34,813 bases of DNA. Origin: Deltaproteobacteria bacterium. GTDB lineage: Bacteria; Desulfobacterota; Desulfomonilia; UBA1062. The stretch covers positions 1 through 34,813 of the forward strand of contig JAJFUP010000069.1 of the NCBI GenBank assembly GCA_021372395.1, read 5' to 3'. This document shows, in pieces, positions 11,181-28,959 of this stretch; the stretch's first letter is position 1; each line of letters starts with the position of its first letter. A program made the translations under genes and the position numbers. The notes beneath the pieces were generated by a model. It saw only the letters and a program-made list of their open reading frames with translations, ran no database searches and was not told the DNA's origin.

Positions 11181-11550
11181 GGCCCTCCTGTGTTTTCTGG
11201 TCCTCCTGGCAGCCTTTGCCGGCTGCGGCAGGAAGCTGCCTCCGCTGCCCCCGGCCCTGCCCGACCCCGTTGAGGTCCGCTCCATCGGGTACGAGGGCGC
11301 CGAGGTGGTCGCCAGGGCGAGGTGCAACGTCGCAGGGGCGACCGTGACCCTCCTGGGCAAACCCAAGGGGATATGCCCTGCCTGCACCGACGACCTCGTC
11401 ATAAAGCAGCAGGTCACCATCGAGACGCCGGGGGAAGTGGTCCTGAAGGACGCCGTGCCGAAAGCGGACTACATGGTGTACCGTATCGCTGCAGAACATG
11501 ATTCCAGCAGGTGGATCACCCCGGCACAGATCGTCGTTCGAAAGAAATAG
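11170..11550 (+). CDS. Small LptM-like lipoprotein with a C-terminal Ig/FnIII-like domain
   Basis: A 126-residue lipoprotein: basic start MRSR, hydrophobic stretch to residue 18, and a signal peptidase II site ending AFAGC with Cys19 as the lipidated residue. The mature start CGRKLPPLPP resembles the CG(Q/K)KGP... start of LptM (YifL), a small lipoprotein that assists assembly of the LPS translocon LptDE and is often encoded directly before lysA, as here. E. coli LptM is far shorter; residues 34-126 here form an extra domain rich in short beta-like strands, and include a CPAC motif (69-72). The ATG at 11170 lies in the end of argH (11-base overlap). Lipoprotein nature is well supported; LptM relationship is inference from position and mature N-terminus. 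Confidence 0.75.
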   Translation: MRSRALLCFLVLLAAFAGCGRKLPPLPPALPDPVEVRSIGYEGAEVVARARCNVAGATVTLLGKPKGICPACTDDLVIKQQVTIETPGEVVLKDAVPKADYMVYRIAAEHDSSRWITPAQIVVRKK

Positions 11551-11590
11551 TCACTCACAAGCAAATCCCAAAGGGAGGTGCCATACCCGT

Positions 11591-12850
11591 ATGCATGATT
11601 TTATCTATGACAAGGAAGGAAGGCTCTGCTGCGCCGACGTGGAGCTCGAAAAGGTCGCTGCCGAGGTGGGCACCCCGTTTTACTGCTACAGCCTGGGCAC
11701 CCTCAAGCGCCATATCCAGGCCTTCGAGGAGCCGCTCGAGGGCATCGAGCACCAGACGTGCTTCGCCATGAAGGCCAACTCCAATCTTGCCATCCTCGCC
11801 TTCATGGCGAAAAAGGGGCTCGGGGCCGACGTGGTGTCCGGGGGCGAGCTCTACCGGGCGCTCAAGGCAGGCATTCCCGCCTCCAAGATCGTGTACTCTG
11901 GCGTGGGCAAGACCACCGCCGAGATCGACATGGCCATCGGCGAGGGCATCATGATGTTCAACATCGAGAGCGAGCAGGAACTCGAGGTCATCGACGAGCG
12001 TGCAGGCGCCCTTGGCAAAAAGGCGCCCATCTCGATACGCGTCAATCCCGATGTGGACCCCCAGACCCACCCGTATATCTCCACCGGGATGAAGGACAAC
12101 AAGTTCGGGATCGACATCGAGGCATCCACCCGGCAGTACCTCCGGGCCAGGCAGATGAAAAACATCGAGATCGTGGGCATCGACTGCCACATCGGCAGCC
12201 AGCTCACCGACATAAGCCCCTTCATCGACGCGGTTGACCGCCTCAGGGCGCTCATATCAACCCTCAGGGCAGCAGGGATGAATTTTCGGTATCTCGATCT
12301 CGGGGGGGGGCTGGGCATCACCTACTCGACCGAGCACCCGCCTCACCCCCGGGAGTATGGCGCCGCCATCATCGAGGCCGTAAAAGGGCTCGATCTGAAG
12401 CTGATCTTCGAGCCCGGAAGGGTCATCGTGGGCAATGCCGGGATACTGGTGACCCGGGTGCTCTACCGCAAAGAGACCCCCAACAAGACGTTCATCATCG
12501 TGGACGCGGGCATGAGCGAACTCATCAGGCCGGCCCTGTACCACGCCTTCCATGACATAAAACCCCTTTCCCTGAAGCACGGCCCCACCGAGAAGGCCGA
12601 CGTGGTGGGACCCATCTGCGAGTCAAGCGATTTTCTGGCCAAGGACCGGGACCTCCCCGTGCTTTCCCGCGGCGACCTGATCGCGGTGATGAGTGCCGGG
12701 GCCTATGGTTTCACCATGGCATCCAACTACAACTCCCGGCCCAAGCCGCCGGAGGTTTTGGTGGATGGGTCCCGATATTCTGTGGTAATACGAAGGCAAT
12801 CTTACGAAGACCTCGTCTCGGGAGAAAGCATCCCGGAGGCACGTGGCTAA
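11591..12850 (+). CDS. lysA: Diaminopimelate decarboxylase
   Basis: LysA decarboxylates meso-diaminopimelate to lysine with PLP. The 419-residue protein has the fold III PLP-enzyme motifs: PLP lysine Lys61 in CFAMKANSN, CHIGSQ (199-204), the phosphate-binding LGGGLGI (237-243), EPGR (274-277), CESSD and GAYGFTMASNYN. The chosen ATG (11591) begins MHDFIYDKEG and gives the usual N-terminus; a GGGAGGTG stands somewhat far upstream (12 bases). An earlier in-frame start would run back into the lipoprotein gene and is not supported. dapA follows after 15 bases. Confidence 0.97.
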   Translation: MHDFIYDKEGRLCCADVELEKVAAEVGTPFYCYSLGTLKRHIQAFEEPLEGIEHQTCFAMKANSNLAILAFMAKKGLGADVVSGGELYRALKAGIPASKIVYSGVGKTTAEIDMAIGEGIMMFNIESEQELEVIDERAGALGKKAPISIRVNPDVDPQTHPYISTGMKDNKFGIDIEASTRQYLRARQMKNIEIVGIDCHIGSQLTDISPFIDAVDRLRALISTLRAAGMNFRYLDLGGGLGITYSTEHPPHPREYGAAIIEAVKGLDLKLIFEPGRVIVGNAGILVTRVLYRKETPNKTFIIVDAGMSELIRPALYHAFHDIKPLSLKHGPTEKADVVGPICESSDFLAKDRDLPVLSRGDLIAVMSAGAYGFTMASNYNSRPKPPEVLVDGSRYSVVIRRQSYEDLVSGESIPEARG

Positions 12851-19231: not shown

Positions 19232-19486
19232 ATGGGAAATTCGGTGAAGATATACACGCTCAGTACGTGCAGCCACTGCAAGGACACCAAGGCGTTCCTG
19301 AACGATTGCAAGGTCCCGTTCGAGTACACGGATGTGGATCTTCTCGACCCCGGGGACAAGGCCGCCATTCTGCAGGAGGTCAAACAACACAACCCGCGGA
19401 TTACCTTCCCCACCATCGTTGTCAATGGCTGGCGTGTCATCGTCGGGTTCAATAAAGCCGAGATCAAGAAGGTTCTCGGCCTGTGA
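19232..19486 (+). CDS. Glutaredoxin-like protein (copy 1)
   Basis: The 84-residue thioredoxin-fold protein has the active site CSHC (Cys13, Cys16), the cis-proline at Pro60 in TFPT, and a VNG...VIVGF strand pair, all typical of glutaredoxin/NrdH-like proteins that reduce disulfides or carry small thiols. AGGAGG stands nine bases before the ATG. It is 63/84 identical, without gaps, to the protein at 28376-28630, and the leaders are also similar, so the two arose by duplication. Unlike copy 2 it is not followed by a reductase gene; it converges with the NTPase gene over 29 bases. A third Cys (Cys26) is shared by both copies. Confidence 0.9.
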   Translation: MGNSVKIYTLSTCSHCKDTKAFLNDCKVPFEYTDVDLLDPGDKAAILQEVKQHNPRITFPTIVVNGWRVIVGFNKAEIKKVLGL

Positions 19487-19515: not shown

Positions 19516-20079
19516 TCACTTCGGTCCGGGATGGCGAAGGCGGCTTTCCCCTGTCAATAGGGCATGCTCTGAAAGGAAGGACGCGATCCTGTCTCTGATA
19601 GCTTGTGTTCCTTGGCAGTCCATGTCCAGGATCTCACCGTTGAGAGGTCCTGCGTGTGAAGACAGGAAGCTTTCCAGGAGGTTCTTCCTTACCACCAGCA
19701 GCATCGAAGAGGCAGGGGGATCGGTCAGGGTCTTGAATATGGGGTAGTGACCGGCCTTTTCCATCTCGAGGATACCGAATTCGTCAAACACAAAGGGAAG
19801 ATTTTTTGTGATGTTGCAAAAATGCCCGTTCACCTTGTCGAATGTGCCTGGATAGAAATAGAACCTGCGGGTTGAATATGCGGTGGCCATGGGCGTGGTT
19901 GTGGCCATGGGCAAGGTTTCCAGCGAAGGCAGGATCAGCAGGGAGATGCCCGAGACGATCCCGTTCTTGAGGGTCTTCAGGCTCAGGAAACCCTGTGCGC
20001 CCCCTGGGTTTGCGGTTAGGATATCTTTGAGCAGCATGGATTTTCCGCATCCTTTTTCTCCCGTGAGGATGAGCATCAT
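19516..20079 (-). CDS. THEP1-like P-loop NTPase
   Basis: The 187-residue protein has Walker A GEKGCGKS (7-14) at its very N-terminus and a Walker B-like strand PFVFDEFGILE (95-105). The layout (P-loop at the first strand, GFLSLKT after about 15 residues, DE-G-xLE in the middle) resembles the THEP1/DUF265 nucleoside-triphosphatase family and the related DUF2478 group. The family hydrolyses NTPs in vitro but its cellular job is unknown. It is the last gene of the leftward uptake operon, 139 bases after the radical SAM gene. Two ATGs (20079, 20076) are possible; an AAGGAAAGGCGG lies upstream. It may act as an ATP-dependent chaperone or metal-cofactor loader for the radical SAM protein, but that is speculation. 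Confidence 0.7.
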   Translation of the reverse strand: MMLILTGEKGCGKSMLLKDILTANPGGAQGFLSLKTLKNGIVSGISLLILPSLETLPMATTTPMATAYSTRRFYFYPGTFDKVNGHFCNITKNLPFVFDEFGILEMEKAGHYPIFKTLTDPPASSMLLVVRKNLLESFLSSHAGPLNGEILDMDCQGTQAIRDRIASFLSEHALLTGESRLRHPGPK

Positions 20080-20218
20080 ATACTGTCACCGCCTTTCCTT
20101 CCTATCCTCTGCACAGGAGAGACCGCTATGGAAACCCATGGCGCTCCAGGTGCAGGGCGGCTTTTCTCCTGTGTGTGCGGCATGAAGGAAGGGGAGACCG
20201 GAAACCCGGGCTGCATCT

Positions 20219-22228
20219 TCACAGGACCGTCTCCAGGATCCCGTAGTGGTGCAGGGCCAGGGACTGGCATTCTATCGTAATCTTTGAGGGGAACGCAGTG
20301 TGAGTCATGATGCTCCTGTTGCCGATGGCAACCGGTACCCTGCCTGCCTTCAGGACGTCGAAGGTCAAACAGTCGCTGAGAAAGGGGGAGTTCCTTGAAA
20401 ACGGATTGATTCTCGGGGAACTCATCCAGTGGGGGTAGGCGAAGAAGTGCGGTACGATCTTCCGGCCGGACGACAGGACCATGTATTGGTGCATGGACGA
20501 AGCATACGGGATGCCGCCAAAGGTGTTGTCCACGGGGGTTGCATCGAAGGGAAAGGATTTCACCCCCACACCGTCCAGGATGATGAGCGCGGTATTGTGC
20601 CCGGACAGCACGTGGGAAACCACTGCCCGGCGTATGTCGGTGATCCGTGAGGGCGGCGTGAAAGTTGCGCATACGGGGATAACTATGTCCATGGCCTCGG
20701 TTCGGTATGAGAACCTGCTGGGCGATGAGAGGGCAAGGAAGCGGTACCCCTCCTCGGGGACGACGAAGTACTCACCGAAGGTGCCCTTGTCGAGGGTCAC
20801 GCCGGCAAGTTCCTCGAGTTCGCATCGGGTAAGGATCCTGTGGATGCCTTCCAGTCCTCTGACCGTATCCGCATCCTCCTGATCCGCCCCATACAGGCAG
20901 GCGATCCCGTCGTCTGCGGAAGCGATCCCCTTGATGTGCTTTTCCAGGTTTATGGTGCCTCGTGTGGCAACCATGTCTCCGAGGCCGACAATCAGTGAAT
21001 CGTAGCCGGTCAACATCAGAAAACGATCCACTTCGGACGTGAGATTCTCAAGGATACCCGAGTAGAGCGAATCCTCCTCCCTGTGCCTTCCAACAAAGGC
21101 GCACTGGGAGTAGACAAGGACCATGAGATCGGGGCGGTACTTTCTCGCAGCTGCCACGGCAGTGTCTGTCACCCACGTGTCAGCCTCTTTCTTCATGTCT
21201 CCCGGATAGGGGTTCTTTTCAATGAATTCCGTCATCAATCCCCGTCCTGACGCCTTCGTCGGCAGGCATGTTGCCATGTCCACCTCGCTCCTCCACCCAC
21301 CCACGTCGATAATGCCTGTTCTCGGGTCTTGTGCAGGTTCTTGTGTCTGCGATTCGAGGACGAATGTCCCCTTGAGGTGTACCTGCCGTGAACATGACGG
21401 GCACGACATACCTCCTTCAAGGGCATGCTCCAACAGGGTAGCCCCGCACCCGCCATTGCTTATCCGCTTTATCAGGGGCGTCTTGCAGGACGGGCAGAGG
21501 GTGTCCACCCAGATGGAGGCGGGGAAATTCTCCAGGTAGATGTAGTCGAGGACCTTCCCGGCTACGCTCCTGAGTGCAACCATGTCCTGAACGCCGGTGG
21601 CAGCGATGGATGCGAGCTTGTACTCCGGGAGAAGCCTGAAGATATGCCAGGGGATGTGCGGACTCACCTGCGAGAGCATGCAGGCGATATCCGCCATGTC
21701 TGATTCCGTGAGCAGGGGGACATATGGGGTCACCACCTCCACATGGACACCGTGATCGTAGAGGGTCCTGATGGTCTCCAGCACCTTCTGCGGGTTTCCT
21801 TTGCCGCACATCGTGCGGTAGTAATCCTGCGTGGGGCCTTTGATGCTGATGTTCACACAGGAGACGGATCGGGCGAGTTCTGCTGTCTGGCTGTCAGAGA
21901 GGAGTCCGTTCGTCGAACATCCCACCAGGATGCCTTTTTCTCTTGCTGCATGAACGATGTCCATGAAGTACTCGAAGCTGACGGCCGGTTCGTTCGCGCT
22001 GAAGCTGATGATGGGGCAGCCTGCAGTAAGGGCCTTTGACGCCACCTGCTCCGGGCTCAGGTCGAAGAAGAACGCGGGCTCGTTGAGAAGGTGCTGGTTC
22101 GAGCAGTACTTGCAGTCGAGGTTGCAGCCGTAGGTCCCGATGGACAGGACCCGTGACCCGGGGTAAAAGTGGAAGAAGGGGATTCTCTCGATATATCCGG
22201 AATACAGCGTTGTCAGTGGGTATTTCAT
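20219..22228 (-). CDS. Radical SAM protein: AmrS-like domain, Cys-pair ribbon and phosphodiesterase-like region
   Basis: The 669-residue protein begins with a radical SAM domain: Cys35, Cys39 and Cys42 (CNLDCKYC) hold the 4Fe-4S cluster, preceded by FYPGSRVLSIGTYG. FSANEPAVSFEY (76-87), INISIKG-type strand (125-131) and IPWHIFRLLPEYK (192-204) match the AmmeMemoRadiSam enzyme AmrS and activase-like relatives. Residues 245-279 have paired Cys (CPSC, CGA, CPSC), like a zinc ribbon. Residues about 350-510 resemble the alkaline-phosphatase/nucleotide-pyrophosphatase superfamily (RPDLMVLVYSQCAFVGRH; IVGLGDMVATRGTINLEK), but the usual metal ligands of DxxGH and SDHG are replaced. Residues about 545-669 are not assigned; ALIILDGVG there recalls the first strand of that superfamily. 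GGAGG is well placed, and the ATG overlaps the permease stop by four bases. The reaction is unknown. Confidence 0.8.
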   Translation of the reverse strand: MKYPLTTLYSGYIERIPFFHFYPGSRVLSIGTYGCNLDCKYCSNQHLLNEPAFFFDLSPEQVASKALTAGCPIISFSANEPAVSFEYFMDIVHAAREKGILVGCSTNGLLSDSQTAELARSVSCVNISIKGPTQDYYRTMCGKGNPQKVLETIRTLYDHGVHVEVVTPYVPLLTESDMADIACMLSQVSPHIPWHIFRLLPEYKLASIAATGVQDMVALRSVAGKVLDYIYLENFPASIWVDTLCPSCKTPLIKRISNGGCGATLLEHALEGGMSCPSCSRQVHLKGTFVLESQTQEPAQDPRTGIIDVGGWRSEVDMATCLPTKASGRGLMTEFIEKNPYPGDMKKEADTWVTDTAVAAARKYRPDLMVLVYSQCAFVGRHREEDSLYSGILENLTSEVDRFLMLTGYDSLIVGLGDMVATRGTINLEKHIKGIASADDGIACLYGADQEDADTVRGLEGIHRILTRCELEELAGVTLDKGTFGEYFVVPEEGYRFLALSSPSRFSYRTEAMDIVIPVCATFTPPSRITDIRRAVVSHVLSGHNTALIILDGVGVKSFPFDATPVDNTFGGIPYASSMHQYMVLSSGRKIVPHFFAYPHWMSSPRINPFSRNSPFLSDCLTFDVLKAGRVPVAIGNRSIMTHTAFPSKITIECQSLALHHYGILETVL

Positions 22229-23232
22229 GATGTTCCTCCATGGTTTCGATTGAGAAGATAGGCGAAGAATGGTGCGCCGATGATGGCGGTTACAATTCCG
22301 AGCGGGATTTCCTGGCCGGTGATCATCCTCGCCACGTCATCCACCATGACCAGGTAGGCCGAGCCCATGAGGGCCGAGGCTGGCAGCAGCTTTGAGTGGT
22401 CGGCACCGACCATCATGCGGCAGAGGTGAGGGACCACGAGACCCACCCAGCCGATGATGCCGGCAATAGCCACGATGGACGAAGCTATCAGGGTGGAACA
22501 GGTGATGATGACCAGGTACAGTGCCTTGGTGTTGATGCCCAGGCCCTGGGCCTCGGTGCTGCCCAGAGACAGGATGTTGAAGCGCCACCTGAGCATGATG
22601 AGCACGGCCGTGCCGATAATGATGACCGGCGCGGTGGTCAGCAAGTCTTCGATCTTCACCGAGGCGAGGCTGCCCATCAGCCAGAACACGATGGCCGGGA
22701 GTTTCGTGTAGATGTCGGCAACGTATTTAAGCAGGGATATGAGTGCTGAGAAAAATGCCCCGACCACTACACCGGAGAGCACGAGAGAGTAGGTGGAGAT
22801 CTTGTCACCAATACGGGCTATGAGGAAGGTGATGCTCACCGCGACGAGCCCGAAAACAAAGGCGAGAAGCTGGATCATGCCCGTGCTGTCGAACAGGAGG
22901 ATTGCGAGCGCTGCCCCGAACCCTCCTCCCGATGAGACTCCGAGTATGTAGGGAGATACCAGAGGGTTTCTAAACACCCCTTGAAAAGAGGCCCCGGTGA
23001 TGCCGAGACCAGCGCCGACGAGCATGGCAATGAGCACTCGCGGGAGCCTCACGTGGAAGATGACGATCTGGGTCAGGTTTGTCGGCTTTTCCCCGAGGGA
23101 AAAGAAAGGCGAACACAGGGCCGAGGCCACCTCGGATGGCGGTATGGCATACCTTCCGAGGAAGAGGGACAGGAAGAACATGAACACGTTCAGGAGGACG
23201 AGGATGATTGCAGCGGACCTCCATCTGTTCAT
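22225..23232 (-). CDS. FecCD/BtuC-family ABC transporter permease
   Basis: The 335-residue membrane protein is the permease of a type II importer for iron chelates, cobalamin or related ligands. Family marks are VRLPRVLIAMLVGAGLGITG (one block after the first helix), FRNPLVSPYILGVSSGGGFGA, WLMGSLASV, and the coupling segment WVGLVVPHLCRMMVG followed by DH. About ten hydrophobic helices are visible. The start MNRWRSAAII at 23232 gives an ATGA overlap with the binding-protein gene; the frame is open 18 codons further but without support. A single permease gene implies a homodimer. The family does not by itself give the substrate. Confidence 0.93.
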   Translation of the reverse strand: MNRWRSAAIILVLLNVFMFFLSLFLGRYAIPPSEVASALCSPFFSLGEKPTNLTQIVIFHVRLPRVLIAMLVGAGLGITGASFQGVFRNPLVSPYILGVSSGGGFGAALAILLFDSTGMIQLLAFVFGLVAVSITFLIARIGDKISTYSLVLSGVVVGAFFSALISLLKYVADIYTKLPAIVFWLMGSLASVKIEDLLTTAPVIIIGTAVLIMLRWRFNILSLGSTEAQGLGINTKALYLVIITCSTLIASSIVAIAGIIGWVGLVVPHLCRMMVGADHSKLLPASALMGSAYLVMVDDVARMITGQEIPLGIVTAIIGAPFFAYLLNRNHGGTS

Positions 23233-24278
23233 TGCTTTTCCAGAACGCTCAAGATATCCTGCTCTTGTGGGGTATACCCAAAGCACGTCTCATAGAAACT
23301 CACGAATTCCTTTTTCATGTCGAACCGGACGTCATGCGGGTAGAGCTTGTTCGCCAGCCACATGATACCGAGGAGAGATTCGGGTGTCGGCACATCCCAG
23401 GATCCGATATAGGTCCTCGACATGAACACGTTCCCTTTCCTGATCGCGGATATGTCCTGGAGACGGCTGTCGTTCGCGAACGACTTCACGCGTGCATTCC
23501 CGTACGTGCCGATAAAGATCAAGTCGGGGTTCCACTCGAGGAGATGCTCGACGGATATCGTGTTCCATCCTCCCTTCAGGGCATGGGCGACATTCACGCC
23601 CCCGGCATACCCGATGAGGGAATCCTGGTAACAGTCGGCCCCTGCCGTGCCGAGCATTGATGGGCCGGCGAAATACACCTTTTTCCTGTTCTTGACGCGC
23701 GAGGTTCTGCTCCGGATGTAGTCGAGCTTTCCCTGGTAGTAGGATACCACGAACTTGGCCCGCTCCTTTTTGTTCATGATATCGCCCACGAGCAGAATAC
23801 CCCGCATGAGGGCCTCGGGGCTTTCCAGATTGAGGTAGACCGTGCTGATGCCGAGTTCCTTCAATGCCCTGTTCTGCTGTGCATTTCGCGTGCAGCAGAA
23901 AACCACATCGGGCTGCAGCTTCAGGATCTCCTCCACCGTTATATCACTACCTGCCGATCTCCCCGGGACGGGGATATGGACGATGTCCGGATAGATCTTT
24001 TTCATCACGTCGTTCATGTCGTAAGTCGATATCCCGACCAGGGCATCCTCGGCCTGTACGAGGAACATGAGCTGGGTCGCGATGGGGTAGAGGGAGGTCA
24101 TGACCCGGTGGACGTCCCGGGGCACCGTCACTTGGTTTCCCTTCATGTCGCGGATGAGCCGAGCCCGCTCCCTTTCGGGAGCCGTCGGATGAACAAGCAT
24201 GGTTGCACCTGCTGCCGCAACAAGGACAACGGTGATGACAGCCGCGAGGATGAGGGCATATCGTGCCTTGGGCCTCAT
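23229..24278 (-). CDS. Periplasmic binding protein of FecB/BtuF type
   Basis: The 349-residue protein has a hydrophobic N-terminal segment (8-28) that acts as export signal or membrane anchor; no lipobox Cys is present. The mature part is a class III substrate-binding protein (PF01497 type): RDMKGNQVTVPRDVHRVM (a variant of the usual D..G..V..P....RIV opening), VEEILKLQPDVVF (115-127), and a long rigid linking helix near the middle. It should deliver a metal complex to the permease. It overlaps both neighbours by four bases. Specificity cannot be read from sequence. Confidence 0.9.
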   Translation of the reverse strand: MRPKARYALILAAVITVVLVAAAGATMLVHPTAPERERARLIRDMKGNQVTVPRDVHRVMTSLYPIATQLMFLVQAEDALVGISTYDMNDVMKKIYPDIVHIPVPGRSAGSDITVEEILKLQPDVVFCCTRNAQQNRALKELGISTVYLNLESPEALMRGILLVGDIMNKKERAKFVVSYYQGKLDYIRSRTSRVKNRKKVYFAGPSMLGTAGADCYQDSLIGYAGGVNVAHALKGGWNTISVEHLLEWNPDLIFIGTYGNARVKSFANDSRLQDISAIRKGNVFMSRTYIGSWDVPTPESLLGIMWLANKLYPHDVRFDMKKEFVSFYETCFGYTPQEQDILSVLEKQ

Positions 24279-25093
24279 GACGGGAGTTCTCCCTGGTGCA
24301 GCCGATGTGCGTCCGGCATGACACCCCTGACGACGCCATTTTCTGTGATGACATTCACGTCCACGGAATACACCTCCTTGATGGTCTCTCTGGTTATCAC
24401 CTCGTGCGGCAGTCCTCTTTTCAAGATCGACCCACGGTGAAGGATCATCACCTCGTCGGAAAAATACAGGGCTTGGTTCGGGTCGTGAGAAGAGATGACG
24501 GCAAGCAGACCCTTCTGTCTGACGAGCCTTCTCAGCAGGCTCAGGATGAGGATTTGATTTTTGAAGTCCAAGTGGCTCGTGGGTTCGTCCAGGATCATGA
24601 GCCGGGTGTTCTGTGCGAGGGCGCGGGCGATGAGCACGAGCTGTCTTTCTCCGCCGCTGATGTTGGTATAGGGTTTCTGCGCCAGCGTAGAGATCCCGAC
24701 CTCCTCCATGGCCTCCTCTGCCAGGGCCAGGTCAAGCGGTGCGGGGGAGGATAAGGTGTCGATATACGGTGCGCGGCCCATGATGACCATGTTCCTCACG
24801 GTGTACGGGAACACGATCGAATGCTCCTGGGGCACGATGCTGATCATCCGCGCGATGTCCCTGCGCCCCAGTTCCCGGATGTCCTTCCCATCCAGGCTTA
24901 TGCTGCCCGAGAGGGGAGGGAGAAGGCCGGACATGCACTGGAGCAACGTAGTCTTTCCCGATCCGTTGCCTCCCATGAAGGTGCAGACCATTCCCCGGGG
25001 GAGGCTGAAGGAGAGATCACTGAATACGGGCCTGCCTTTTTCATAGGCAAAGGTGAGCCCGTCCACACGGATGAGCCTATCTCTCTTTCCCAT
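24275..25093 (-). CDS. ABC transporter ATP-binding protein of FecE/BtuD type
   Basis: The 272-residue ATPase powers the importer. Walker A is GGNGSGKT (41-48), Q-loop VPQE (87-90), signature ISGGERQLVLIARAL (145-159), Walker B LMILDEPTSHLD (165-176) and H-loop SSHD. The layout, with a long insertion between Q-loop and signature (VRNMVIMGRAPYID...), is that of iron-siderophore and cobalamin transport ATPases. It lies one base after the tonB stop and overlaps the binding-protein gene by four bases. Confidence 0.95.
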   Translation of the reverse strand: MGKRDRLIRVDGLTFAYEKGRPVFSDLSFSLPRGMVCTFMGGNGSGKTTLLQCMSGLLPPLSGSISLDGKDIRELGRRDIARMISIVPQEHSIVFPYTVRNMVIMGRAPYIDTLSSPAPLDLALAEEAMEEVGISTLAQKPYTNISGGERQLVLIARALAQNTRLMILDEPTSHLDFKNQILILSLLRRLVRQKGLLAVISSHDPNQALYFSDEVMILHRGSILKRGLPHEVITRETIKEVYSVDVNVITENGVVRGVMPDAHRLHQGELPS

Positions 25094-25094
25094 G

Positions 25095-25874
25095 TCAGGA
25101 ATTCTCCACGAGCTTGAACGTGACGGGTACGGTCAGAATGGTGGCCTTGTCGGGAGGCGGGGGGAAGACGCAGGATTGGATGGTCTTCACCGATGCCTTG
25201 TCCAGGAGAGGTATGCCGGATGAGGATATGATCTCGATATCGCTCACTTTGCCCTGTTCATCGACGCTGAAACGGATGGACAGCTTTCCTTCAAGGTTTC
25301 TCCTTCGGGCGTTTGCCGGATAGGAGAGGTTGGCCTGAATAATCTTCAATACCTGGCTGGCATAGAGGCGAAGACCAAGGTCATGATCCATAGCCGGGCC
25401 GCTGTTCGCAGGTCCCCTCTGGCCATATCCCCTGTCGGCGGGGGGAGAGGTCGGGCCTCCCCTATCGCCGGAGGGAGAGGCAGGGGTGCTCCCCTGCTGT
25501 ATCGCTTCCTGGGGGGGAGAGGTATCCTCCATAACCGGTGCCTGAGCTGATTTCAAGTGAGGATTCGGAAGGCTTTTCAGCCTGGGAGGAGAACTTTTAC
25601 GTGGTGCGGACGTCTGCCGTGATGGGAGCGACGGATGGGTGGCGATCTCTCTTTGCCGGGGCATCTCTGAGATGACGGCGACGTGAAGGAGAGAGTACTC
25701 AGCAGGTTTTTCCTTCACCGTACAGAGATAGACGAACAGGGCGACATGGAGTGCGAACGAGAGGTACAGGAAGGGTGATAGTCCGGCCAGAAGTTTCATC
25801 GGTTTCGTCGGATACTCTGCCAATGAACGCGAAGCCATGGGCATGGAACCGCCTGTATCTTGAAAGATCTCCAT
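25095..25874 (-). CDS. tonB: TonB-family energy transducer
   Basis: The 259-residue protein has a cytoplasmic start, one transmembrane helix (about 32-52), a Pro/Ser-rich periplasmic spacer (70-165), and a C-terminal TonB domain (about 170-256) with YPANARRRNLEGKLSIRF, VDEQGKVSD and FPPPP. The helix carries Ser39 and His43 four residues apart (SFALH), the pair known from E. coli TonB Ser16/His20 as essential for coupling to ExbB/ExbD. No exbB or exbD is in the window, so these must be elsewhere. Placed between receptor and transporter genes, it is probably dedicated to this receptor. The start is uncertain: ATGs at codons 1, 11, 13 and 26 are possible, and the first has its AGGA very close. 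Confidence 0.9.
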   Translation of the reverse strand: MEIFQDTGGSMPMASRSLAEYPTKPMKLLAGLSPFLYLSFALHVALFVYLCTVKEKPAEYSLLHVAVISEMPRQREIATHPSLPSRQTSAPRKSSPPRLKSLPNPHLKSAQAPVMEDTSPPQEAIQQGSTPASPSGDRGGPTSPPADRGYGQRGPANSGPAMDHDLGLRLYASQVLKIIQANLSYPANARRRNLEGKLSIRFSVDEQGKVSDIEIISSSGIPLLDKASVKTIQSCVFPPPPDKATILTVPVTFKLVENS

Positions 25875-26001
25875 TATCCTCGTGTACTACAGGAGTCAGG
25901 CAGGGCTGGTATCCAGGGGACGGCGTTCTCGCCGTAACAAGGCCTGCCGCTGATCGCGATATCCCGATCTTCCGGATTCATTCCCGTACCTCTTGAAGTT
26001 T

Positions 26002-26055
26002 TCGTCCTGGCCTGCTGGAGCAGCAGGCCAGGACGACGGGTGAAAAAACGGTGTG
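26002..26055. repeat. Hairpin-plus-tail repeat, copy 2 (16-bp perfect stem)
   Basis: TCGTCCTGGCCTGCTG (26002-26017) and its exact complement (26021-26036) form a 16-bp stem with a GAG loop, followed by GTGAAAAAACGGTGTG (26040-26055). It shares the stem core and tail with copy 1 at 18976-19027. It lies between the receptor gene and tonB, where it might limit read-through or stabilise the receptor mRNA 3' end. No T-run follows the stem in the operon's direction. Confidence 0.75.
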
Positions 26056-26063
26056 TTGCAGGA

Positions 26064-28136
26064 CTACAGCTTTACCGTGCCCTTTACCATGTAGGTCCGT
26101 CCGTGGCTCTTGTCCCAGGACTCCCAGTATTCCTTGTCGAAGACGTTGAACACCCCGGCGGAAACCTCGCAGTTCTTTACCCGGTAGCCCAGGTTGAAGT
26201 CCACCACGGTGAACGGGTCGTACCCGTCGATGCGGTTGTTGTAGATGTCGCTGTTGTCGGCATAGTTGTAGCGGTCTCCGACGTGCCTCAGCACCGCGTT
26301 CGAAAAGAGTTTCCCGTTGTCGTAATCGCACCCGAGGTTATAGGTCTTGTCCGGTATCCGGGTGAATTCCTTTCCATCAATCTGTGCTGCAAGATCCGGA
26401 TCGTCCACCTTATTGACCTTGGTGTAGGTCCTCGTGTAGTTGGCGAACAGGCTCAGATCGCTCCTGAGGGCGAGCTTTGCCGTTGCCTCGTACCCCCAGG
26501 TGGACCCCTTGCTGACGTTCTTGTACATGTAGTCGGCTATCCCGTCGCCGTCCAGGTCCGGGGTGTCCACCTTGTACATCATGTCCTTTATCTCGTTGTT
26601 GAAATAGGTTGCCCCCATGCTGAATGCCTTGGTGAAGGACCTTTCCACACCTACCTCGTACGAACGGATGGTCTCGGGCTTCAGCTCAGGGTTCGGCAGG
26701 GAGGTGCCTCTCCTGCCCCGGGAATATTCGAACGCCTCCCAGAGGGTGGGGCCCCTGAACGCCTCGCCGGCAGAGGTCCTTATCGTGGTCTTGTCGTCTG
26801 GCTTTATCACGAGGGAAACCCGAGGAGACACGTAGTTGTCGGAATGGTCGGGCGTTTCGGTGGGATAGCCTGCAGAGGCACCGTTGGTCGCTGCGTTGTA
26901 TGCCTTCCAGTAATCATAGCGCAGGCCGCCGTAGAGGGTGAGGAAGCTCGTGGCATCCCACTGGTCCTGCAGGTATGCGCCAGTGGTGGTGGTCGACCCC
27001 TTGGTGATCTGGTCGTCATCAAGAACTGATGGATCTTTTTCGTCCAGCGAGGATATGCGTGCGTGTGACCAGTCGGTTCCCACGGTCAGGGTGTTCCTTG
27101 CCGGGAGCTTGATGTTCGACTGGATGCCTGCATTGATATGCGAGTTGGGCCTCAGGGAGTCTCCCGAGTTGTTGTTCCAGATGAACTGGTCCGTGTAGTT
27201 GTCCGTGAATCCTGCATTACAGAGAACCTCCACATCCTTTATCTCCGAGTTCCTGTAGGAGAGGATGTAGGTGTTGTTCGCATGCTCTCGATATGAGGAA
27301 GACAGATACTGTCCGTCGTAGTTCACTGTTGCCACCGGGTCCAGCTCGAAGCTGGCATGGGTGAACCTGAAGCTCAGGGAAGAATCGGGGGTCATGTCCC
27401 AGGTGATGCCGGTGGTAAGGGCCTCGTTGGTGGTGTTCTCCGTGGTGTAGCCCTGGATATATGTCGTCCCGCCCGTTGCGTTCGGTGCCGCGATGTTGTT
27501 GACGCCGGGGCTGAAGGCGGTGCTGGTCTGTTTGGGGGCTTCGAGCGTCATCCTCCTGTAGAGGATGTTGTAGGTGAAGTTGCCGACAGACCATCCATGG
27601 CCGGCGGAGAGGTACTGGGCCTGATTACTCCCGCACCCGTAGGTGAACTCGAACGGGGAGTACTCGGTCTTTGTGAGGATGTTCACCACCCCTCCCATGG
27701 CCCCCCCGCCGTAGAGGGCGGAGAACGGGCCGCGGACCACCTCGATGCGGTCGATATTCTCCACCGGGATGCTCCACCAGTGGATGTTTCCCTCGTAGTT
27801 GTTCATGGGTTGCCCGTCCAGGAGCACCAGGCTCTCGGACGCATTGGGCATGCCCCTGAGGTGAATCGGCGCAAAGGAGTCGGATATGCCCGATACCCCC
27901 TCCACCCGTTCACTGAAGAGGCCGGGTAACGCCCGGATGGCCTCATCAACGAAATGCGAATTGGATTCCTTGATAGCGGCCCCTGTCACGACGTTCACCG
28001 TGGCAGGGGAATCGCTCACCTTTTGCTGGGTCTTCGTGGCAGTGACAACCACGTCCCCCACGTTTGTTTCTTCCGCGAATGCGGAAGTTGCCAGAACCAA
28101 AAAACACAGTACTATCCCTATCGTGAAGTTCCTCAT
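26064..28136 (-). CDS. TonB-dependent outer-membrane receptor (BtuB/CirA-like)
   Basis: The 690-residue protein starts MRNFTIGIVL with a signal peptide cleaved after AFA (about residue 21). A TonB box (VGDVVVTATK, 27-36) follows, then the plug domain (about 40-155) with VVRGPFSALYGGGAMGGVVNI-type motif, and a 22-strand barrel with alternating aromatic strands; STWGYEATAKL and GVFNVFDKEYWESW are typical near the C-terminus. The plug motif and spacing resemble BtuB, CirA and other cobalamin or siderophore receptors; the ligand is not determinable. The final residue is Leu, not the usual Phe. ATG 28136 has GAGGAG six bases upstream and is preferred to the ATG six codons earlier. It is the first gene of the leftward operon, downstream of a good promoter. 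Confidence 0.94.
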   Translation of the reverse strand: MRNFTIGIVLCFLVLATSAFAEETNVGDVVVTATKTQQKVSDSPATVNVVTGAAIKESNSHFVDEAIRALPGLFSERVEGVSGISDSFAPIHLRGMPNASESLVLLDGQPMNNYEGNIHWWSIPVENIDRIEVVRGPFSALYGGGAMGGVVNILTKTEYSPFEFTYGCGSNQAQYLSAGHGWSVGNFTYNILYRRMTLEAPKQTSTAFSPGVNNIAAPNATGGTTYIQGYTTENTTNEALTTGITWDMTPDSSLSFRFTHASFELDPVATVNYDGQYLSSSYREHANNTYILSYRNSEIKDVEVLCNAGFTDNYTDQFIWNNNSGDSLRPNSHINAGIQSNIKLPARNTLTVGTDWSHARISSLDEKDPSVLDDDQITKGSTTTTGAYLQDQWDATSFLTLYGGLRYDYWKAYNAATNGASAGYPTETPDHSDNYVSPRVSLVIKPDDKTTIRTSAGEAFRGPTLWEAFEYSRGRRGTSLPNPELKPETIRSYEVGVERSFTKAFSMGATYFNNEIKDMMYKVDTPDLDGDGIADYMYKNVSKGSTWGYEATAKLALRSDLSLFANYTRTYTKVNKVDDPDLAAQIDGKEFTRIPDKTYNLGCDYDNGKLFSNAVLRHVGDRYNYADNSDIYNNRIDGYDPFTVVDFNLGYRVKNCEVSAGVFNVFDKEYWESWDKSHGRTYMVKGTVKL

Positions 28137-28180
28137 GCCAGTCTCCTCATGCAAAGATGCAGTGGTTTATTGAGTTACAA

Positions 28181-28208
28181 ATAACATATTGAAAACCCCC
28201 ATTGTCAA
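28181..28208 (-). promoter_or_regulatory. Probable sigma-70 promoter of the receptor/uptake operon
   Basis: On the minus strand a perfect TTGACA (28208-28203), a 16-base spacer and TGTTAT (28186-28181, 4/6) lie about 45 bases before the receptor start. A GTTACAAATAAC palindrome (28174-28185) overlaps the -10. Confidence 0.5.
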
Positions 28209-28349: not shown

Positions 28350-28375
28350 TACAGAGAGACAGGAGGATGAACGAC

Positions 28376-28630
28376 ATGCAGACATCCGTGAAGATATACA
28401 CGCTCAGCACGTGCAGCCACTGCAAGGACACCAAGAAGTTTCTGAACGATTGCAAGGTGGCCTATGAGTACACCGATGTGGACCTCCTCGACTCCGGAGA
28501 CAGGGCCGCCACCTTGGAGGAGGTCAAGAGGTACAATCCCAAACTTACCTTCCCCACCATCATCATCAATGGTGATCGCATCATCGTCGGGTTCAATGAA
28601 AAAGAGATCAAGGAGGCCCTCGGCCTATGA
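28376..28630 (+). CDS. Glutaredoxin-like protein (copy 2), partner of the FTR subunit
   Basis: The 84-residue thioredoxin-fold protein has CSHC (Cys13, Cys16) and cis-Pro60, and is 75% identical to the protein at 19232-19486. An ATG nine bases earlier (28367) touches the AGGAGG (28361-28366) and cannot be used well; from ATG 28376 the ribosome-site spacing is nine bases, exactly as in copy 1, and both proteins have the same length. Its stop overlaps the FTR gene by four bases (ATGA). The coupling strongly suggests that this glutaredoxin is the electron acceptor of the FTR subunit. Confidence 0.92.
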   Translation: MQTSVKIYTLSTCSHCKDTKKFLNDCKVAYEYTDVDLLDSGDRAATLEEVKRYNPKLTFPTIIINGDRIIVGFNEKEIKEALGL

Positions 28631-28959
28631 ACGAAGCAGACAAGCTCCGCGAGATGCTCAGAAAGGTCCAGGAGGGCAAGGGCTACTTCTTCAGCACCGA
28701 TGAAGAGCGGGTCAACGATCTGATGGAGGCGCTCCTGCTCAACAAGGGGCGCTACGGCTACATGTCCTGCCCCTGCAGGCTTGCCTCGGGAGAGAGGGAT
28801 AAGGATCGGGACATCATCTGTCCGTGCGAGTACCGCGGCCCCGATGTGGCGGAGTACGGGAGCTGCTACTGCAACCTGTACGTGTCCAGAGAATGGAACG
28901 AGGGCAAGATACCCCACGAGTACGTCCCGGAGAGGAGACCCCCCGAGAAGTACCTGTGA
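28627..28959 (+). CDS. Ferredoxin-thioredoxin reductase catalytic subunit-like protein
   Basis: FTR catalytic subunits use a 4Fe-4S cluster next to a redox disulfide to pass electrons from ferredoxin to thioredoxin-fold proteins. The 110-residue protein has the six Cys: Cys48-Pro-Cys50, Cys65-Pro-Cys67 and Cys80-Tyr-Cys82. By comparison with plant FTR, Cys50 and Cys82 would be the disulfide and the other four the cluster ligands. The spacing (14 and 12 residues) differs from plant CPC-x16-CPC-x8-CHC, and Tyr81 stands in place of the conserved His. I recall this CYC form from anaerobic bacteria and archaea. No variable subunit is needed in such forms. It is translated with the glutaredoxin and converges with the PilZ gene over 27 bases. 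Confidence 0.9.
   Translation: MNEADKLREMLRKVQEGKGYFFSTDEERVNDLMEALLLNKGRYGYMSCPCRLASGERDKDRDIICPCEYRGPDVAEYGSCYCNLYVSREWNEGKIPHEYVPERRPPEKYL

Follow-up and report, generated by a model that had tools for sequence, protein, structure and literature searches.

The window analyzed here, the whole 34,813-nucleotide stretch of DNA, comes from a relative of syntrophic Desulfobacterota and contains an operon of seven leftward genes at 19516-28136 (minus strand), identified from the list of open reading frames and by domain profile searches. It begins with a TonB-dependent outer-membrane receptor (26064-28136, 690 aa; Plug 1e-23, barrel 8e-51), for which the best start is the ATG at 28136, followed by TonB (25095-25874, 259 aa; TonB_C 1.4e-18), a FecE-type ABC ATPase assigned by its domain profile matches (24275-25093), a periplasmic binding protein with a Peripla_BP_2 match (23229-24278), and a MolB-like permease of the FecCD type (22225-23232; FecCD 3e-90), with an ATG at 23232 in an open reading frame that reaches 23286. 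The last two genes encode a radical SAM fusion protein (20219-22228, 669 aa) and a THEP1-like P-loop NTPase (19516-20079, 187 aa; GEKGCGKS, DEFGILE). The TonB and ATPase genes are separated by 1 bp, and the next three junctions, from the ATPase gene through the binding protein and permease genes to the radical SAM gene, are 4-bp overlaps. The coordinates confirm both the gene count and the 1- to 4-base spacing that the initial annotation had described between tonB and the radical SAM gene; the remaining gaps are 189 bp (receptor to TonB) and 139 bp (radical SAM to NTPase). An operator-like palindrome, TATGTTATTTGTAACTCA, lies at 28171-28188 (minus strand), ~35 bp 5' of the receptor ATG. Near-duplicate glutaredoxin-like genes are found on either side of the operon (19232-19486 and 28367-28630, both plus strand). 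The second of these overlaps an FtrB-like ferredoxin-thioredoxin reductase gene (28627-28959), and a homolog is also close to formate dehydrogenase in one related locus (L120).

The N-terminal half of the fusion (residues 13-289; 21362-22192, minus strand) shares with AmrS, the radical SAM enzyme of the AmmeMemoRadiSam set (TIGR04337), the radical SAM core with its CX3CX2C motif (here CNLDCKYC, residues 35-42) and the region of a C-terminal CXXC pair. However, it scores 145.9 bits against TIGR04337, for which the curated cutoff is 220, and it is only ~33-38% identical to its AmrS-type matches. In an unrooted tree, a 100/100 branch lies between the radical SAM proteins linked to the partner domain described below, both fused and split, and 11 AmrS-type proteins. 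By score and by tree, this half is best classified as a relative that branches separately from canonical AmrS rather than as a member. A search of a plasmid collection returned AmrS-level matches only.

The C-terminal domain of the fusion (residues 301-669, ~370 aa; 20222-21328, minus strand) is encoded by a separate gene beside an AmrS-like radical SAM gene in other genomes. No Pfam match was obtained for any of 25 members of this partner domain, so by Pfam the domain is neither Memo nor AMMECR1 and would count as a new family. The idea that an ordinary AmmeMemoRadiSam gene landed in a transporter operon by chance, which the kinship of the N-terminal half to AmrS might suggest, is hard to reconcile with the TIGR04337 score, the tree, the identity of the partner and a linkage that is kept across several phyla, and we consider it extremely unlikely. 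Relative to AmrS, the window enzyme also differs in being fused to or paired with a domain that resembles alkaline phosphatases (AP) and in being located in operons for predicted molybdenum or tungsten (Mo/W) transporters.

For the fold of the partner domain, we used two AlphaFold2 models, which were made from different lead sequences with overlapping alignments (mean pLDDT 86.5 and 85.9). Both place phosphonoacetate hydrolase first (Foldseek probability 1.00, E 3e-5 to 5e-5), with a superposition of Z 10.2 over ~213 residues (rmsd 3.5 to 3.9), and alkaline-phosphatase-superfamily chains fill the VIA lists of both models. The predicted fold may thus be like that of phosphonoacetate hydrolase and the NPP phosphodiesterases (Z ~10 in both models), but TM is 0.38-0.40 and only ~60% of the domain is covered. 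The match begins at about the second third of the alkaline phosphatase fold, whose N-terminal third is unmatched in order, and the unmatched C-terminal part of the domain includes a (D/E)GVG strand resembling the usual first strand of the fold. A circular permutation, in which the first third of the fold would be supplied by the domain's own C-terminus, is possible. The domain differs from these enzymes in that sequence similarity was not detected (hhalign gave no significant match to Phosphodiest proteins, even with a circularly permuted profile) and in its likely active site. The dimetal site of the superfamily is built from Asp and His ligands, including three histidines (the set as generally known, rather than mapped on coordinates). 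As just one histidine is invariant among the 25 members (H354 of the domain), the usual three-histidine site is not conserved.

The NTPase falls below the cutoff of Pfam NTPase_1. A profile of six of its homologs nevertheless finds THEP1 of Aquifex (aq_1292, 1ye8) at E 2.5e-5, with a shared P-loop and Walker B pattern, so "THEP1-like" was a fair description. Where the neighborhood could be read, the 11 close homologs among 99 relatives are either within operons of this kind or divergent from formate dehydrogenase genes (as in L118 and L120), which ties this NTPase, unlike THEP1, to Mo/W uptake and formate dehydrogenase genes.

The fusion is kept at full length in five other genomes of the family (55-59% identity), which argues that the gene set is conserved rather than assembled by chance. 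The operon order in the family is receptor, ExbB, ExbD, TonB, ATPase, binding protein, permease, radical SAM fusion, second binding protein and NTPase, with differing receptors and with one of the five operons interrupted by a contig end. The window operon has neither ExbB nor ExbD, nor the second binding protein. For the latter, no close copy was found in the window genome, where the top-scoring proteins are the binding protein encoded in the operon itself and two more distant ones. Elsewhere, the fusion is split into an AmrS-like radical SAM protein of ~335 residues and a partner of ~375 residues, whose gene is directly 3' of the radical SAM gene in most loci. Scanning 84,980 species genomes yielded at least 27 loci with the radical SAM/partner pair (a lower bound, as the scan needs exact patterns) from Thermodesulfobacteriota, Bacillota (including three Sporomusa), Acidobacteriota and Actinomycetota. 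Fec-type transporter genes accompany the partner domain in 24/27 loci, and the other three have ModB/Wtp-like or MOT1 transporters. The initial annotation would have been undermined by homologs that routinely occur apart from transporters, and this neighborhood survey did not find them to do so. It had also noted that no described pathway is known to have this exact set of genes; our literature search, which was limited in scope, likewise turned up no paper on the gene set or on TonB-dependent Mo/W uptake.

The transporter genes point to the class of ligand. Compared with solved structures, the window permease scores 254 bits against MolB (HI1471), 187 against FhuB and 138 against BtuC, a lead of 67 bits, and it is closer to MolB than to BtuC, HmuU or FhuB; two other full-length FecCD permeases of the window genome, used as a control, show no such lead. 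MolA (HI_1472, 3psa) is the third best match of the binding protein (2.7e-27), so the protein is akin to MolA; binding of molybdate or tungstate would be expected of it in a MolBC-A-type importer. Both features are shared with MolBC-A (HI1470-HI1472), the FecCD-type molybdate/tungstate importer of Haemophilus influenzae. As described (PMC4031551), MolBC-A has no TonB receptor, radical SAM protein or NTPase, all three of which the window operon has. A TonB-dependent step is unusual in this setting, as MolBC-A is a low-affinity importer of free molybdate and its paper names no TonB (PMC4031551), and this counts against a Mo/W reading. Judged from sequence, the window transporter can be described as a TonB-linked relative of MolBC-A. 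The receptor is less informative: among receptors of known ligand, none stands out, and its top-scoring models are heme and B12 receptors, with every score below cutoff. With the B12 models, the receptor reaches 162 of 600 bits and the permease 234 of 461, short of a match of BtuB/BtuC grade.

Two kinds of regulatory element connect these operons to Mo/W. First, the Mo/W-cofactor riboswitch (RF01055) is directly 5' of the operon that encodes the radical SAM/partner pair in three distantly related lineages (L047, at ~112 nt from the gene; L054; and L062, in tandem); in L045, it is just 3' of the partner gene. As the genomes concerned hold only three to five RF01055 copies each, chance linkage is remote (simple binomial ~6e-8). 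Some relatives of the operon belong to the riboswitch regulon, whereas the window has no riboswitch and the window genome has no RF01055. The founding paper for RF01055 mentions neither radical SAM nor TonB (PMC2408646). Second, we derived an 18-bp palindrome, TATGTTATNNRTAACATA, from the upstream regions of these operons. The window site, TATGTTATTTGTAACTCA, has two mismatches to it and is the sole site with three or fewer mismatches in the 34.8 kb. Eight sites with at most one mismatch were found in eight family genomes. Four of these are at or beside the source operons, and the other four are at formate dehydrogenase genes (2) and FmdE/molybdopterin oxidoreductase genes (2). In addition, two-mismatch sites precede modA in two genomes (G013, G014). 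As a control, the backwards motif gave 9 matches, versus 32 for the forward motif. The two mismatches of the window site, the different upstream sequences of the fused operons of G014, G017, G019 and G020, and the lack of RF01055 in the window genome count against the Mo/W reading. Still, as predicted for a Mo/W-regulated operon, a regulatory element of this kind is present ahead of the operon, namely the riboswitch in relatives and the shared putative operator in the window. A predicted secreted protein resembling cytidine deaminase is encoded beside the radical SAM/partner operon in two loci (L085, 765-1430; L041, 14192-14845), and in G017 the deaminase-like gene has its own Mo/W palindrome upstream.

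Neighboring genes also point to Mo/W. MOT1 (PF16983), of which there is one gene per genome, is within 10 kb of the pair in 4/9 genomes that have it (~2e-7). WtpA is above cutoff in L047, a Wtp/ModB-like permease and ATPase are present in L045, and FmdE adjoins the pair in Sporomusa and relatives; the Mo/W roles of the MOT1, FmdE and FecCD neighbors in these organisms are assigned by family. Within Sporomusa Mo/W uptake operons, we also observed a gene that joins a TrmO N-terminal domain to an FmdE-like one (L049, 12948-13778). The window genome itself has seven Molybdopterin matches, three of which are interrupted by an in-frame TGA, a feature of selenocysteine formate dehydrogenases. Uptake of a corrinoid, heme or iron-siderophore, with the radical SAM protein as a tailoring enzyme, would fit the heme and B12 receptors among the sub-cutoff models of the receptor. 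We consider it very unlikely given the links to the Mo/W riboswitch, MOT1, WtpA, modA and formate dehydrogenase, a permease nearest to MolB rather than BtuC, and the lack of any cobalamin riboswitch: at gathering threshold, neither a cobalamin nor a NiCo riboswitch was found in the window or in 24 related loci. The corrinoid, generic metallophore or other cofactor first suggested as ligand for this operon accordingly gives way to molybdenum or tungsten, which the operon probably imports across both membranes; both this import and Mo/W control have good support.

Which step the radical SAM/partner pair performs is constrained by loci in which the pair and the transporter come apart. In L119 (G011), an operon that runs from receptor to NTPase but has no radical SAM gene is divergently oriented to formate dehydrogenase, and two palindrome-like sites are located between them. 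In Bacillota L047 and L051 the pair occurs with oxyanion-type MOT1/WtpA transporters only. The pair and this type of transporter can thus each be found without the other, and the most likely target of the pair is Mo/W or its cofactor, within the cytoplasm, rather than one imported organic ligand. What stands of the original proposal is an operon for uptake through two membranes that also encodes a conserved radical SAM fusion and NTPase, while processing of the imported ligand by the radical SAM enzyme is somewhat disfavored, since the uptake operon occurs without that enzyme and the pair occurs with simple oxyanion-type transporters. The same loci weigh against a metallophore pathway, in which the pair would make or dismantle an organic Mo/W chelator imported by the TonB system. 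Bulky chelates are the usual ligands of TonB receptors, the operons of some relatives (L046, L048, L055-L057, L028) include class I or O-methyltransferases, and MATE-type or MFS exporters are near in L047 and L043, as judged by eye. However, the window operon contains no peptide-synthase, exporter or other chelator gene, and we regard this pathway as unlikely, though worth keeping in mind. Cofactor salvage, in which molybdopterin or a Mo/W-pterin nucleotide would be imported and recycled by the AP-like domain and the radical SAM enzyme, draws on the nucleotide phosphodiesterases among the AP-superfamily relatives and on the predicted secreted deaminase of G017, which adjoins the operon there, as a homolog does in G013. 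It is at odds with the unconserved three-histidine dimetal site and with the coexistence of the pair with oxyanion transporters, and the free molybdenum or tungsten cofactor is unstable outside cells; salvage therefore seems quite improbable.

The gene set, its conservation, its linkage to Mo/W regulation and the MolB kinship were computed directly, and the following mechanism is proposed beyond them. We think it rather likely that the operon is a Mo/W-responsive acquisition system with an intracellular step carried out by the radical SAM/AP-like protein and the NTPase. When Mo/W is scarce, an operator-binding repressor would release the operon, with the window palindrome as putative operator and this sign of regulation presumed; in some relatives, the Mo/W-cofactor riboswitch would take the repressor's place. 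A Mo/W species, either complexed or as the free oxyanion, would cross both membranes by way of the receptor, TonB, the binding protein and the MolBC-like ABC transporter, and the imported Mo/W would feed enzymes such as formate dehydrogenase. No secretion signal was recognized on the fusion or the NTPase, which would act in the cytoplasm on the metal or the pterin cofactor. Members of the alkaline phosphatase superfamily bind oxyanions, and phosphate is well known to be mimicked by tungstate and molybdate; we therefore propose that the AP-like domain, having lost the usual dimetal catalytic set, may bind Mo/W as the oxyanion or else a cofactor intermediate that bears phosphate. The AmrS-like domain could then modify that cofactor or a carrier, whether protein or small molecule, and the NTPase might drive loading or release. 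There is perhaps an even chance that the pair is an undescribed enzyme for a new Mo/W step (for example, cofactor modification or synthesis of an import ligand) coupled to an undescribed TonB-dependent Mo/W import. Syntrophs and acetogens rely on Mo/W enzymes for their formate metabolism, and little is known about how Mo/W passes the outer membrane; the operon suggests a TonB-dependent, MolBC-like route, together with Mo/W control of a radical SAM enzyme whose partner domain is uncharacterized. As the pair is present in cultivable Sporomusa, its function is directly testable.

Several further genes were observed next to these operons. In the window genome, another binding-protein/FecCD operon (L034, G000:C94) adjoins a class I methyltransferase of a kind that is also present in the radical SAM/partner operons of L028 and L056. 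In the tandem-riboswitch operon of L062, a DUF4213/DUF364 protein, putatively for heavy-metal chelation, is encoded directly 3' of the partner gene (11208-11927). Finally, a predicted secreted multiheme-like protein, rich in CXXCH motifs and with membrane helices at its C-terminus, is encoded 3' of the partner gene in Desulfotignum (L046, 11903-14341), and a similar protein likewise follows the partner gene in L055.
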